Shown here piece by piece: positions 6,369 through 11,370 of a stretch of 13,738 nt of DNA. The stretch covers positions 1 to 13,738 of the forward strand of contig JALOPK010000059.1 in assembly GCA_025453925.1 (NCBI GenBank), read 5' to 3'. The stretch comes from Candidatus Eiseniibacteriota bacterium (GTDB lineage Bacteria; JAFGKV01). Each line of letters starts with the position of its first letter. Position 1 is the stretch's first letter. Below the pieces are notes generated by a model that saw only the letters and a program-made list of their open reading frames with translations, had not been told where the DNA came from and did not search any database. Both the position numbers and the translations under genes were made by a program.

Positions 6369-6744
6369 GTGCGGAACCTACGGCCTCTCGAGGGTGCGGT
6401 CAATCAGCCAGCGGTGCTGATTCGCGGGTGGGCACGCCCGGGCGGCGGGGTGCGGTTGCTGACCAGGAGCGGACACCCCATGTCCGTGAACGGCGCCGGT
6501 GCCGCGGGTTGACGGCGACCTCGCGCCGCTGCTTGTTGCCGCTGCCGCGCAGGTCCCGCCGGCGGTGTTGACCGTGGGGCCTGCGGGAAAGCCAGCAGGG
6601 AGATCGGAACGACCCGCCATGCGTGGCCTTGGGCGCTCCCGAGCGGGCACGGAAGCTGCATTACGGTGCAGATGTTCTCTTCTGAGACGATGTTGCCGAC
6701 GCCCTGCGGGCGCGATGAGTTGTTCAGGTTCGAAGGAGACGCAG
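6369..6744. other. Divergent intergenic region between mrfA and the Tld pair
   Basis: 376 bp that must hold the promoters for mrfA (leftward) and the Tld genes (rightward). TTGACG at 6509 and TTGACC at 6567 resemble -35 boxes, but neither has a convincing -10 about 17 nt downstream. A small hairpin, CTGCA-TTACGG-TGCAG, lies at 6656-6671. The reading frame of the first tld gene stays open back to 6499, but that part is Arg/Cys/Pro-rich and unlike a protein. Confidence 0.5.
6734..6739 (+). promoter_or_regulatory. Ribosome binding site choosing a TTG start
   Basis: AAGGAG, a near-ideal Shine-Dalgarno, ends at 6738-6739 and is followed by ACGCAG and TTG at 6745. The codons after it encode a normal Sec signal peptide. 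No in-frame ATG upstream (nearest 6715) has a comparable signal. Confidence 0.7.
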
Positions 6745-8460
6745 TTGGAGAAGATACGGCCATTTCTTGCCTCGGCACTTGCCGCGGCGCTGGTATGCGG
6801 AGGCGCGGAGGCGTCTTCCGTGCTGCTGGACGCCATGGAAGCGGAGCTTGCCCGGGCAATGGAGACGATGGGCTCCTCAACCGATGTGCCGCTCTACTAC
6901 ATGCAGTACACGGTCACCGACGAAAGCCGGTTCGAGCTCTCGGCGGCGGACGGCGGTTTCAACGCGCCGGAATCCTCGAGACTCCGATACCTCGACGTTG
7001 ACATACGAGTCGGGAGCATGTCCCTGGACAACACCCACGAGATCAGAGGGGGCGGATCGTCCGACAACTACCCTCCCCGGCGCGTCGTGCAGTTCCCGAT
7101 CCAGGATGAGCCGGGTTCCGCCCGCGCGACACTGTGGGCCGAGACGGAGTATCAGTACCACAAAGCGGTAGATCGCTACTCCAAGGTCGTTACCAACCGG
7201 CAGATCAAGGTGGAAGAGGCGGACAAATCCGCCGACTTCTCTCCCATGCCTCCGCACCAGTACGCCGAAGTGGTCGTGCCCACGCGCAGGGATACCTCGC
7301 TTATCCGGCCGATCATGCGGAGGGCGGCGAAGTACTTCACCGAGCATTCGTTCGTTCTCAACTCAGGCGTGTCCTTCACGATTCTGGACAAGACGACCTA
7401 TCTGGTGTCGAGCGAGGGTCACCGTCTCCAGTTCGGGAATCGCTATCTGAGGATGGATCTCACGGTCGTGGGTATGGCGAACGACGGGATGGAGCTGTCC
7501 CGACACGAGGGCTTCTCCGCCGCGGTGCCCGAGCACCTTCCCGATGAAACCACGGTCATGAAGACGGCCGAGCGGCTCGTGAAGGAACTCCGGCTCCTGA
7601 TCGACGCACCAGAGGTCGAGCCGTACCTCGGCCCCGCCATCCTGCGCAGCCGGGCGAGCGGGGTGTTCTTCCACGAAATCTTCGGACATCGGGTAGAGGG
7701 TCATCGGCAGAAACGCACCGATGAGGGGCAGACGTTCACGAAGAAGATCGGCGAGTCCATCCTCCCGCCGTTCATCAGCGTGTACGACGATCCCACCGTG
7801 TTTCGTCATGGGAAGCACGACCTGCGCGGATACTACGCGTTCGATGACGAGGGCACTCCCGCCCAACGGGTCACCATCGTCGAGCGCGGGGTGCTCAAGG
7901 GCTTCCTGATGTCCCGCTCCCCGATCGACGGGTTCCCTCTCAGCAACGGTCATGGGAGACGGCAATACGGCTACGACGTGGTCTCGCGTCAGGGGAATCT
8001 CATCGTCGAGTCCTCCGAGACGGTCCCCTGGGAGGAACTGCGTCGCCGGCTGATCGCCGAGTGCGAGCGCCAGGGCAAGCCCTACGGTCTGGTCTTCGAG
8101 GACATCGGCGGCGGCTTCACCACGACCGCGCGCCGCGGACCTCAGGCGTTCAAGGTGCTGCCCCTCCTGGTGACCAGGGTGTACACCGATGGACGACCTG
8201 ACGAGATCGTCCGCGGTGTGGATATCGTGGGCACGCCGCTCACCAGTTTCAACAAGATCATCTGCACCGGCGATGACTACGATGTGTTCAACGGCACATG
8301 CGGGGCCGAGTCGGGCATGGTGCCCGCATCCTGCATCTCTCCCAGCATCCTCGTCTCGGAAATCGAGGTCGAGAAGCGCCAGAAAGCCCAGGAAAAGCCC
8401 CCCATCCTCCCGCCGCCGCGATGTGATGCGGGCGGTGCGGCAGTCGGGACACATGGCTGA
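6745..8460 (+). CDS. Exported TldD-like metallopeptidase, active-site residues intact
   Basis: TldD/PmbA (peptidase U62) proteins degrade or trim peptides; in E. coli the TldD/TldE heterodimer acts in microcin B17 maturation and CcdA turnover in the cytosol. This 571-residue protein starts at TTG 6745 behind a strong AAGGAG. Residues 1-23 (EKIRPFLASALAAALVCGG then AEA) look like a Sec signal peptide with AxA cleavage, so it is probably periplasmic. The N-terminal half has the family-type LRVG/SLDNT and W..TEYQYHKA features. The zinc site is HEIFGH at 310-315 (His310, Glu311, His315). The C-terminal Cys used as a third ligand in TldD is Cys519 in NGTCGAESG, followed by VPASCISPSILVSEIEV. The next gene overlaps by 8 bp and encodes a degenerate paralogue, a probable partner. 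Family certain; export likely; substrate unknown. Confidence 0.88.
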   Translation: MEKIRPFLASALAAALVCGGAEASSVLLDAMEAELARAMETMGSSTDVPLYYMQYTVTDESRFELSAADGGFNAPESSRLRYLDVDIRVGSMSLDNTHEIRGGGSSDNYPPRRVVQFPIQDEPGSARATLWAETEYQYHKAVDRYSKVVTNRQIKVEEADKSADFSPMPPHQYAEVVVPTRRDTSLIRPIMRRAAKYFTEHSFVLNSGVSFTILDKTTYLVSSEGHRLQFGNRYLRMDLTVVGMANDGMELSRHEGFSAAVPEHLPDETTVMKTAERLVKELRLLIDAPEVEPYLGPAILRSRASGVFFHEIFGHRVEGHRQKRTDEGQTFTKKIGESILPPFISVYDDPTVFRHGKHDLRGYYAFDDEGTPAQRVTIVERGVLKGFLMSRSPIDGFPLSNGHGRRQYGYDVVSRQGNLIVESSETVPWEELRRRLIAECERQGKPYGLVFEDIGGGFTTTARRGPQAFKVLPLLVTRVYTDGRPDEIVRGVDIVGTPLTSFNKIICTGDDYDVFNGTCGAESGMVPASCISPSILVSEIEVEKRQKAQEKPPILPPPRCDAGGAAVGTHG

Positions 8461-10192
8461 TCCGCGGCGCGCGGCGGCGGCGTTGTTGCTGTGCGTCAGG
8501 GTGTGCGCCGGGGCAGGGTCAGACGCCGCCCCCGACGATTCGGTGTTCGGCGCCATGGAGGACGAGCTGCACCGGTCTCTCGAAGGCCTCTCCATGGTGG
8601 ACCTCGACCCCCCGTACTTCCTGAGCTATGAGGTGCGTGAGCATGCGACCACCGTGGCGGACGCGCGCTATGACGCGATGGTGCGCTCCACCTCCCGCAC
8701 CACGCGCACCCTCGGCATCGACCTCCGGGTCGGCGATCCGTCATTGGATAACACGAACTTTTACGCCGACTGGTCGGATGCGTGGGGCCGGCCGGCGGAT
8801 CTGGTCGAAGAGGATGACTACTGGGCGCTCCGTCATGAGATCTGGTACCGCACAGACAAGGCCTACAAAGCGGCGGTCGAACGGCTCGCGAAGAAGAAGG
8901 CCTATCTCCAATCGCATCCTTCCGATGAAGCGCTGGTCGACCTCTCGCCGGTCGAGCCGTGCGTGCACATCGAAGACCGCCAGTCCTCCGCGGTGGACCA
9001 GGGGGTGATCCACGCCTTGCTCAACACCGCCGTCGAGGCGTGCCACGAGGTGCCCGCACTGCAGGACTGGGATGTCGGATTCCTGGGCGATACCGAAACA
9101 CGATGGTTCGTGAGTTCCGAGGGAAGTCGCGTGCGCACCGTCGGGCACGGCTACGCGCTCACGGTCAGCGGCACCACGCAGGCTCATGACGGCCAGCGCC
9201 TCTGTGCGCAGCGCCGCTACATGGTGCCCACGCTGAACGCGATGCCCACGAAGGAGGATCTCGCCCACGACGTCCGCCGGTTCTTCGAGGAGCTCTCGGC
9301 AATGGCCGGCGCAGACCTGCTCGACGAGTACGCCGGCCCGGTGCTCTTCACCGAGTATGCCGCTGCGCAATTCATGGCCGGCCTCTTTGCGGAGCAGCTC
9401 ACTCTCCCCCGGACTCCTCTGGTGGCAACCGAGTGGATGCGGGAGTATTTCCAACCGGGCAAGCTGGCGGGGAGGGTGAACAGGAGGGTTCTGCCCCGGT
9501 TCGTGACGATCCTTGATGACCCCGGCCGGACAACCTGGCGAGGAATGCCGCTCATGGGTTCCCGGTTCGTCGATGATCAGGGAGTAAGGTGCCGGCCCTT
9601 CGCTCTGGTCATGCACGGACGGCTGGTGACGCTCCCGATCACCCGATCGCCGTCGCGGAAAGTCAGTGAACCGAACGGCCGCGCGATCAAGGTGCAGGCG
9701 GAGGCGGCGGTCCCCGGGATCAGCAACCTCATCGTTCGCGCCGATAACCGTCTGAGCCGCGAGCGGCTGATCAAGGAACTCCGCAGGCTGTGCGTCGAAT
9801 ACGAACTGGAGTTCGGCCTGCTCGTTTCTCAGCTCGAGGATCCGTCGGTCGGCGCCCGATACCGGTGGACCGAGGCGCGCAACGGTGATGACGCGTCGCT
9901 TCTCCCGCCGCCCCTCATGGTGTACAAGGTGTTCGCCGACGACGGCCGGATGGAGCCGGTTCGAGGTCTGGTGTTCGAGGATGTCACCATCAGAAGCCTG
10001 CGGGACATCGTGGCCTGCGGGAAGGACGAACGGGCCTACAACATGTTCGTGAATGCGGGGTTCACCGACATGTCCTACCCTGCCTCCATCATCACCCCAT
10101 CGGTGCTCGTCGAGGAGATGGAGCTCAAGAGCAGCCCAATCAGGGAACCCCTCCCGAAAGTGCGGAATCCGCTCTTCGCGTCTCCGCGGTAG
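8453..10192 (+). CDS. TldD/PmbA-family paralogue without metal ligands, probable TldE-like partner
   Basis: 579 residues, collinear with the preceding TldD-like protein: LRVGDPSLDNT matches LRVGSMSLDNT, GPVLF matches GPAIL, and YPASIITPSVLVEEMEL matches VPASCISPSILVSEIEV. The site aligned with HEIFGH (residues 309-314) reads AGLFAE, and the C-terminal Cys is Ala535, so both His, the catalytic Glu and the Cys are lost. That is the TldE/PmbA condition: a non-catalytic subunit shaping the partner's cleft. The start chosen is ATG 8453, inside ATGGCTGA, which overlaps the upstream stop by 8 bp and suggests translational coupling. It gives MADPRRAAAALLLCVRVCAGAGS, a plausible though imperfect signal peptide (internal Arg). 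ATG 8426 (MRAVRQSGH...) is the alternative. The frame open back to 8189 is only shadow of the first gene. Confidence 0.85.
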   Translation: MADPRRAAAALLLCVRVCAGAGSDAAPDDSVFGAMEDELHRSLEGLSMVDLDPPYFLSYEVREHATTVADARYDAMVRSTSRTTRTLGIDLRVGDPSLDNTNFYADWSDAWGRPADLVEEDDYWALRHEIWYRTDKAYKAAVERLAKKKAYLQSHPSDEALVDLSPVEPCVHIEDRQSSAVDQGVIHALLNTAVEACHEVPALQDWDVGFLGDTETRWFVSSEGSRVRTVGHGYALTVSGTTQAHDGQRLCAQRRYMVPTLNAMPTKEDLAHDVRRFFEELSAMAGADLLDEYAGPVLFTEYAAAQFMAGLFAEQLTLPRTPLVATEWMREYFQPGKLAGRVNRRVLPRFVTILDDPGRTTWRGMPLMGSRFVDDQGVRCRPFALVMHGRLVTLPITRSPSRKVSEPNGRAIKVQAEAAVPGISNLIVRADNRLSRERLIKELRRLCVEYELEFGLLVSQLEDPSVGARYRWTEARNGDDASLLPPPLMVYKVFADDGRMEPVRGLVFEDVTIRSLRDIVACGKDERAYNMFVNAGFTDMSYPASIITPSVLVEEMELKSSPIREPLPKVRNPLFASPR

Positions 10193-10203
10193 CCCGGAGC
10201 ACC

Positions 10204-10228
10204 GCCCGGGATGCGCGCTGCGCAGGGC
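10204..10228 (+). terminator. GC-rich hairpin after the Tld pair
   Basis: GCCC-GGGA-TGCGC-GCT-GCGCA-GGGC begins 12 nt after the stop: a 5-bp inner stem and a 4-bp outer stem with a one-sided internal loop. No T-run follows. Candidate end of the Tld transcript, low certainty. Confidence 0.35.
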
Positions 10229-10324
10229 GCCTGAGGATCACGCCCCCGGCAGGCGCAGTCACCCTCCCGTTGCACACATCCGCCTCCCCTCGCGGACCAT
10301 TGCCGTCTCCTCGAATCGCGCCGA

Positions 10325-10358
10325 GCGGGCACTATTCTAATATTAGAATAGTGCCCGC
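10325..10358. repeat. 34-bp perfect palindrome with AT core
   Basis: The left arm GCGGGCACTATTCTAAT is followed immediately by its exact reverse complement, with no spacer or mismatch. The central 18 bp are only about 11% GC inside GC-rich DNA. No T-run follows. It could be an operator for a dimeric regulator, a site for another dimeric DNA-binding protein, or the end of a former mobile element. The nearest + gene start is more than 1.1 kb away. Confidence 0.9.
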
Positions 10359-10672
10359 GTCAGCCTGGGGCGCAAGGCTGCATCCGAAGACCGGTGTTCA
10401 CGCCGAGGAGCTGCGCCCTTCGCGCCGCCCTCAGCTACCGGCCGTCGCTGGTCACCCCGATCGTTGTCTCTCACAGAGCTGAATGGCGTGGGCCGAGGCG
10501 ACAGCCCCAATACCACCCGCTGAGTCTCAGCGCACTGTAGACTTGAGCAATTCTGCGTCGTCTCGGACGGGGAGATGGTGCAGTTGCCGATGACGTGAGG
10601 GAAGAAACGGGTAGGTGCACCTCACGAGACCACCGCAGCACATGTCCACGCATCCGGAGAACGACTCGCAGA

Positions 10673-10692
10673 CCTGCCTGCCGGCAGGCAGG
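10673..10692. repeat. 20-bp perfect GC palindrome, REP-like
   Basis: CCTGCCTGCC is followed directly by GGCAGGCAGG. Read as protein, such elements give ACRQAG or CLPAGR peptides, as seen in the short frames here. A diverged relative lies about 110 bp downstream. Confidence 0.8.
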
Positions 10693-10799
10693 GATACCGT
10701 CGGGGAGGGCCGCACCCCCGCAGGGGCTGGCAAGAACCTGCAAAGACCCACGGACGAGGCCAAGGCCGGAAGGAAGTGGGAGGGGTATGCTCTGGCGCC

Positions 10800-10852
10800 T
10801 GCCTGTGCGGACACCTGTCTGCCGTGCCGGCACAGGCAGACGCAGACAGGCA
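10800..10852. repeat. Imperfect nested palindrome related to the element at 10673
   Basis: Nested arms: TGCCTGT (10800-10806) with ACAGGCA (10846-10852), GTCTGCC (10817-10823) with GGCAGAC (10835-10841), and GTGCC directly abutting GGCAC (10824-10833), with a bulged A. It shares the ACCTG(C/T)CTGCCG core with the upstream palindrome, so both look like copies of one repeat family. Confidence 0.7.
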
Positions 10853-10879
10853 TGAGCTCGTATCAGCGATGAAGGAGGA

Positions 10880-11280
10880 GTAGCGACCTCTGAGGAGATG
10901 CGCGACATCTCTCTCATTTGGGTACCACCCGGATGAGGCAAAGGAGCTCTCGGTCGTTGCGGTTTCTGGAGCAGCGCAGGTCCCGGGCACAGGACCGGGG
11001 GAAGCCTGAATCGCTGGAAGGGAACGAGGCCCGCGGTAAACCGGCATTGGGAGGGGTGAATGTGTTCCAGCACTTACGCATCACCGATGTGGGGAAGGCC
11101 ACGGGAGGACATGCTACGGTCGCCAACCGGACTCGGGAAATCCGACCGTCCGGGATGACACCGGGGGCCTGGGGAAACGTGACTATGGAAACTGGGTTAC
11201 GGCCCATATCGAAAGGTGCGGGGACCAATCCCCCAGCTGCCTACGGTGCGCGCCCCCAGCTCTATCCCGACCCCGAGGTA
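10880..11280 (+). ncRNA. Highly structured non-coding RNA, class unidentified (group II intron-like?)
   Basis: Successive local stems fill the block: GAGATG/CATCTC (10895-10911); CTCAT-TT-GGGT with ACCC-GG-ATGAG (10913-10937); CGTTGC/GCAGCG (10955-10976); GGTCC/GGACC (10979-10996); GGTG-A-ATGTG with CGCAT-CACC (11055-11085); ACGGTCG/CGACCGT (11116-11149); a GAAA tetraloop on TATC/GGTG (11207-11218); and GGGG/CCCC (11220-11233). At least four stems need G-U pairs that exist only if the + strand is the RNA. No frame here looks like protein. The general look (GAAA loops, TATGG, purine-rich joints) recalls domain I of a bacterial group II intron, but I see no domain V and no reverse transcriptase. 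A truncated intron, an omega-RNA-like element or a new RNA class all remain possible. Ends are approximate. Confidence 0.45.
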
Positions 11281-11370
11281 CCCACCTCTCACTGAACGGC
11301 CGTTGTCCGATTCCGACCTACACGGCAGTGTGCCCCAAACCTCATCCTCCGCACTCTACCCGTGGCAGCG

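Follow-up and report, generated by a model that had tools for sequence, protein, structure and literature searches.

Bacterial group II introns usually, though not universally, encode a reverse transcriptase (RT) in domain IV (DIV), and the AGC triad is common to group II introns and spliceosomal U6 RNA. Among the described introns without an open reading frame (ORF), those of Thermosynechococcus elongatus, TeI3, have been demonstrated experimentally to be mobilized in trans by a protein that another intron encodes (PMC2882425). The catalytic triad of group II introns is given as AGC or CGC (PMC4424553). Published surveys rely on the Rfam model of domain V (DV), as in one survey using RF00029 (PMC8919778), and the family described here is invisible to this model.

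The window, the whole stretch of 13,738 nt of the Candidatus Eiseniibacteriota contig JALOPK010000059.1 that was analysed, very probably carries a truncated copy from a family of RT-less group II introns that are nested and mobilized in trans. A sequence-only reading of this DNA had proposed a structured + strand RNA at 10870–11300; structure and strand are upheld, whereas the limits are not, since the profiles place the element at 10586–11271, leaving 11272–11300 outside, and two palindromic insertions interrupt it. That no credible protein frame exists there is borne out by the four ORFs crossing the region, which have no Pfam match. The Rfam scan of the window proposed as a check returned nothing at curated thresholds and, at E ≤ 10, only unrelated matches due to chance. 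Searching related genomes with blastn turned up a single strong match (71% identity over 429 nt), a full-length copy in genome G002 (same family; Candidatus Fermentibacteria; L018 and L058 are the same locus), and weaker ones on plasmids of Cupriavidus, Mycobacterium riyadhense and Niallia, in places that carry no annotation. Phage and plasmid searches gave clear relatives in only three plasmid records, and viral contigs scanned with a domain III (DIII) pattern gave no match; the Streptomyces and Aeromonas plasmid matches were short and were set aside as probably due to chance. With cmscan, D1D4-4 was matched inside the element in L048 (44.3 bits, E 1e-6) and L018 (40.6 bits, E 9e-6), both below the curated cut-off of 49, and D1D4-6 in the flanking host sequence of L049 (40.1 bits), while L050, an RT-bearing intron, gave two D1D4-4 matches (114 and 110 bits) and an RF00029 domain V/VI match (33.4 bits) at the place homologous to the window DV. 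The D1D4 matches in relatives and the RF00029 match in L050 thus assign the window region to the 3′ half of a group II intron, with the following parts.

10586–11271, + strand: the whole surviving 5′-truncated copy of an ORF-less group II intron (nhmmer, family profile and nearest-subfamily profile).
10586–10801, + strand: end of domain I (DI) and domain II, between the lost EBS1 and DIII (profile positions 296–489; the EBS1 of relatives lies just upstream).
10673–10692, no strand: GC-rich palindromic insertion CCTGCCTGCCGGCAGGCAGG in the intron copy, read from the sequence and absent from the family profile.
About 10802–10849 (boundaries approximate), no strand: second GC-rich palindromic insertion in the intron copy, seen as the gap separating the two profile matches.
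10854–10949, + strand: domain III, closing helix 10854–10861/10942–10949 and inner helices, with double-sided changes in most pairs.
10952–11121, + strand: domain IV, without an RT ORF; stem strands 10952–10961 and 11113–11121.
11124–11157, + strand: atypical domain V, CAACCGGACUCGGGAAAUCCGACCGUCCGGGAUG, with GAAAU loop, CC bulge and the triad AAC instead of AGC.
11163–11267, + strand: domain VI (DVI), covarying helices 11163–11165/11265–11267, 11170–11174/11254–11258 and 11178–11185/11242–11250.
11264, + strand: putative branch-point A, 7 nt before the 3′ end, invariant in 24 sequences.
11271, + strand: intron 3′ end CTATCCCGAC, ...CCCGAC, its GAC terminus fitting AY.

The family profile matches the window in two segments, 10586–10801 (E 2.5e-16, model 296–489) and 10850–11271 (E 9.5e-51, model 485–867 of 867). 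The portion of RNA that had been likened to domain I comprises domains III to VI, domain I being the missing part, and the DV that had been reported as not visible is present in atypical form, as a hairpin of about 34 nt with a 2-nt bulge directly before DVI. The latter has the bulged A at 7–8 nt from the 3′ end and the AY terminus that are expected of a group II intron. Sequences similar to the palindrome at 10673–10692 occur as short matches in other genomes, and the one at about 10802–10849 matches dispersed copies in genomes G001, G033, G089 and G094, including genomes of other phyla. Upstream of the element, a perfect palindrome at 10325–10358 with the core CACTATTCTAATATTAGAATAGTG recurs at about 40 places in the window genome; its arms outside the core differ in several copies yet stay self-complementary.

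Folding of the single sequence favours the + strand (z −1.6, with 5 of 100 shuffles equally good) over the − strand (z +0.47), in agreement with the orientation originally claimed and with the conservation of the stems in homologues, but the energy barely beats that of the shuffles and by itself is no proof, so comparative evidence was needed. This came from an alignment of 24 homologues from several phyla, running from DIII to the 3′ end, with a consensus of 75 pairs. In these sequences 94.8% of the alignment cells are paired and 39 of the 75 pairs are kept with both sides changed, the compensatory covariation that had been named as a check; the covariation score is 0.432 against 0.177 ± 0.007 for shuffles (0/500) and 0.05–0.11 for slid partners. 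The DIV helix varies on both sides in five of its nine pairs across the family. One of the G-U pairings originally cited, 10918–10919 with 10931–10932, prolongs the covarying helix 10913–10917/10933–10937, whereas the other two (10957/10974 and 11063/11078) lie outside the conserved structure, 10957 belonging to the first strand of the DIV stem, whose partner is at about 11113–11121. The invariance of DV in this set is not evidence, as the pattern search fixed most of the domain; independent support is provided by compensatory changes in L047, L146 and L162 and by the outermost DV pair, which the subfamily of the window has as C-G where most members have G-C.

The DV hairpin pattern identified 50 loci in genome contigs, comprising many Bacillota, Mycobacterium and another actinobacterium, Gamma- and Deltaproteobacteria, Planctomycetes and Fermentibacteria. 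The elements are 744–988 nt long, starting with GGAG[C/T].GCC and ending with CTA[C/T]CC(C)GAC, and about 35 copies have the precise ends GGAG...CTAYCCGAC. They offer no room for an RT ORF, the longest stop-free frame in the five elements checked being 80–260 codons; DIV is shortened in the family and lacks the RT. With R1, a covariance model of domain III alone that is independent of DV and was used to check the biased DV sample, 3 of 299 genomes from the order of Gracilibacillus massiliensis had matches at E ≤ 0.001, as did 8 of 395 genomes in one further phylum and 4 of 392 in another, the lowest-scoring of these matches being sister elements or ordinary introns. The ORF-less family is widespread but rare. 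In the open-access literature, leaving aside a 2008 survey of ORF-less introns (10.1261/rna.1056108), we found neither a description of this family nor bacterial introns inserted in domain V; its novelty is not certain, but an RT-less intron family with an altered catalytic centre is apparently undescribed; an undescribed RNA had been one of the three suggestions of the sequence-only reading.

By sequence the family is clearly of group II intron descent, and yet two hallmarks are absent. The first is the triad. In ordinary introns such as L050 the lower DV helix is unbroken, with AGC opposite GUU; in the family AAC stands opposite an extra nucleotide, giving a 1×2 internal loop in place of the G·U pair, and the AGC or CGC triad is lacking in the window copy as in the family. 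AAC is present in 52 of 54 pattern-selected DVs, a count biased by a contig pattern that fixed most of DV including its 3′ strand, and one that takes in 13 Gracilibacillus copies and one locus twice; it is also present in all seven strong DV-independent matches from new contigs (L146, L149, L150, L158, L159, L161 and L162). Three low-scoring ORF-less relatives of about 0.77 kb, L148, L153 and L154, retain the AGC triad, faced by AAU rather than GUU; from their sequences they look like a sister lineage, possibly representing an evolutionary intermediate state. The altered triad should impair catalysis provided that DV works as it does elsewhere, and the atypical DV is in part why Rfam misses the window copy. 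The second hallmark is the GUGYG 5′ terminus, in place of which the family starts GGAGC or GGAGT, a 5′ end fixed by the tandem copy in L071, by reconstruction of the host DV and by the EBS1-IBS1 pairing described below. In L071, from Neobacillus pocheonensis, one element of a tandem pair is inserted at the precise 3′ terminus of its neighbour (CTACCCGAC / GGAGCAGCC).

The insertion sites of the family lie in many cases within other group II introns. At nine loci (L048, L056, L057, L067, L069, L073, L085, L091 and L103) the element occupies the apical loop of another group II intron's DV, and joining the flanks restores the hairpin with its 2-nt bulge; L149 and L161 likewise sit in a host DV loop with a restorable hairpin, giving 11 loci, though their hosts are related and the Mycobacterium pair and the Neobacillus group may each represent one event. 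L159 is at the 3′ edge of a host DV. The hosts in L056, L067 and L069 have an intact RT and GIIM (maturase) ORF ending 18–50 nt upstream of the element. In a group of Bacillaceae the element instead splits domain I of a D1D4-6 intron, and in L055 the Rfam match is accordingly in two pieces around it. The twintron arrangement, one intron inside another with removal restoring the host, is seen for the relatives and not for the window copy. The Gracilibacillus copies lie outside group II introns; at least 12 of the 13 (L075 among them) are in a structured dispersed repeat (CGGCTTGCCCA / ... / CTTCGCTTTCCGGGG), the stems of which seem to covary between loci.

Target recognition was analysed in 19 lineages by comparing each element with the 7 nt that directly flank it on the 5′ side. 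A 7-mer complementary to these is found at a single, constant place in the alignment, within CGACC..GT[7-mer]GGGGAAGGCC; pairing scores with each element's own flank sum to 279, while permuted flanks give a mean of 168 and a maximum of 234 (0/5000). We interpret this fixed-site pairing as the EBS1-IBS1 interaction of group II introns; the L057 and L090 lineages show no good pairing, and the window copy has lost EBS1. The pairing places the 5′ end at GGAGC rather than at a GUGYG. The least unlikely of the competing readings holds that the altered DV is inert and that the elements are dead passengers copied along with their host introns. The AAC triad fits such a view, as does nesting inside mobile hosts, which permits hitch-hiking; on the other hand the EBS1 sequence follows the target in each lineage, a match that requires targets to be actively selected, the same DV is retained across phyla, and G. 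massiliensis has 13 copies at 99–100% identity, outside group II introns and in a different repeat; we consider inert passengers unlikely. The near-identity of these copies supports recent mobility. The G. massiliensis genome also has 11 uninterrupted GIIM proteins. As a tentative proposal, one that we regard as only slightly less likely than not, this cross-phylum RT-less lineage may have exchanged AGC/CGC, a triad presumed essential, for AAC with a compensating bulge and may still splice and retrohome, through a remodelled active site or the machinery of host introns, as a hyperparasite of the DV loop of other introns.

The window copy itself differs from its full-length relative L018 of G002 in its 5′ part. 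Both profiles, of the whole family and of the nearest subfamily, begin to match abruptly at exactly 10586, just downstream of where relatives carry EBS1, and run to 11271; the earlier suggestion of an intron relic is right for this copy. Domain I with its exon-binding sites, both of which full-length relatives have, gave no signal upstream of 10586 with two profiles and in eight pairwise comparisons. An intact intron, still splicing but with a domain I diverged beyond recognition, could be accommodated in the roughly 390 non-coding nt that separate 10586 from the upstream stop (10192), where there are weak look-alikes such as GAATG..CAGCCCC near 10480; but the domain I of eight relatives aligns to 10193–10584 no better than to shuffled sequence, both profiles stop at the same nucleotide, two palindromes break up the remainder, and no second copy of the element was found in the window genome, making this reading very unlikely. 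Because domain I is missing, the window copy is best regarded as a 5′-truncated, decayed relic of an ORF-less group II intron, retaining DIII–DVI while EBS1 is gone together with domain I. Upstream lies a pair of adjacent TldD/PmbA-like metallopeptidase genes (6499–8460 and 8456–10192), about 26% identical to each other. For the second of them the other two genomes of the phylum gave no match, and no empty site of the window locus is therefore demonstrable there.

The good preservation of the DIII–DVI structure despite the loss of domain I, together with the dense folding of the + strand, might instead indicate a regulatory or structural RNA domesticated from a group II intron. Such a role is marginally less credible still than an intact intron: the element was not found in the same-genus genome G001, the relatives have no conserved gene neighbour, none of the known relatives shares the truncation of the window copy, and palindromes are inserted within it. 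The HEARO or omega RNA of an IscB- or TnpB-type nuclease, an impression of the sequence-only reading with which a structured intergenic RNA would agree, has a negligible probability and is refuted by the homologues, which have a DV/DVI architecture and flanks that are group II introns, with no HEARO match in the window (E ≤ 10) or six homologous loci (E ≤ 1) and no IscB-type ORF when the window was scanned with Pfam.

Returning to the nested intron family mobilized in trans, full-length members would find their target through EBS1-IBS1 pairing, with EBS1 being retargeted to new sites, and by analogy with T. elongatus they would most likely be spliced and retrohomed by an intron-encoded protein supplied in trans from ordinary group II introns; both the splicing and the use of a host protein are inferred. 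Many such ordinary introns have themselves been invaded by the family, in the DV apical loop or in domain I, and a nested DV insertion would leave the host helix able to re-form. The truncation in the window would be explained by incomplete reverse transcription at insertion or by later deletion. As it stands the window copy would be unable to splice, and its genome as assembled offers no reverse transcriptase to help: RVT_1 gave no match in G000 or G002, and the window genome, in which no RT match was found, is 82% complete, so that a helper may be encoded in the part not assembled. A natural lineage in which the middle G of the triad is changed while signs of mobility are kept would make it testable how far the active site can be altered, and to favour the domain V of other introns is in itself an unusual way of targeting.

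Among the systems comparable to the family, the sister elements L148, L153 and L154 have the same architecture and are alignable from DIII to DVI, differing in AGC with AAU opposite. The RT-bearing D1D4-4/D1D4-6 introns (L050 of Cupriavidus necator and the hosts in L055, L067 and L069) have the same domain order and a similar start of domain I, a homologous DIII core (..GCGAAGGGGCCCTG..), a 5-nt GAAAN DV loop with a CC bulge, and the DVI motif GGAAACGTG...GCGCGCC with the branch A and an AC 3′ end; they differ in having an RT in DIV, the canonical AGC and a GUGYG 5′ end, all three of which the family lacks. Like the family, the TeI3 introns and the TeI3/TeI4 twintrons are ORF-less, multicopy and found inside a related RT-bearing intron. 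However, the insertion site of TeI3 is in DIV, close to where the host ORF begins, whereas the family inserts in DV or DI, and TeI3 arose by ORF deletion in one genome and has ORF remnants, in contrast to a family which spans phyla and has an altered DV (PMC2882425). The inner intron of the Trichodesmium twintron, Tr.e.I8, also lies in domain I of its host and has a DV called atypical by its authors; it differs in encoding its own protein (PMC4649490). The nested introns of Methanosarcina acetivorans (Dai and Zimmerly 2003), as far as they are presented where cited in PMC4424553, are likewise ORF-less and home into related introns, but they are archaeal and their target is the intron ORF.
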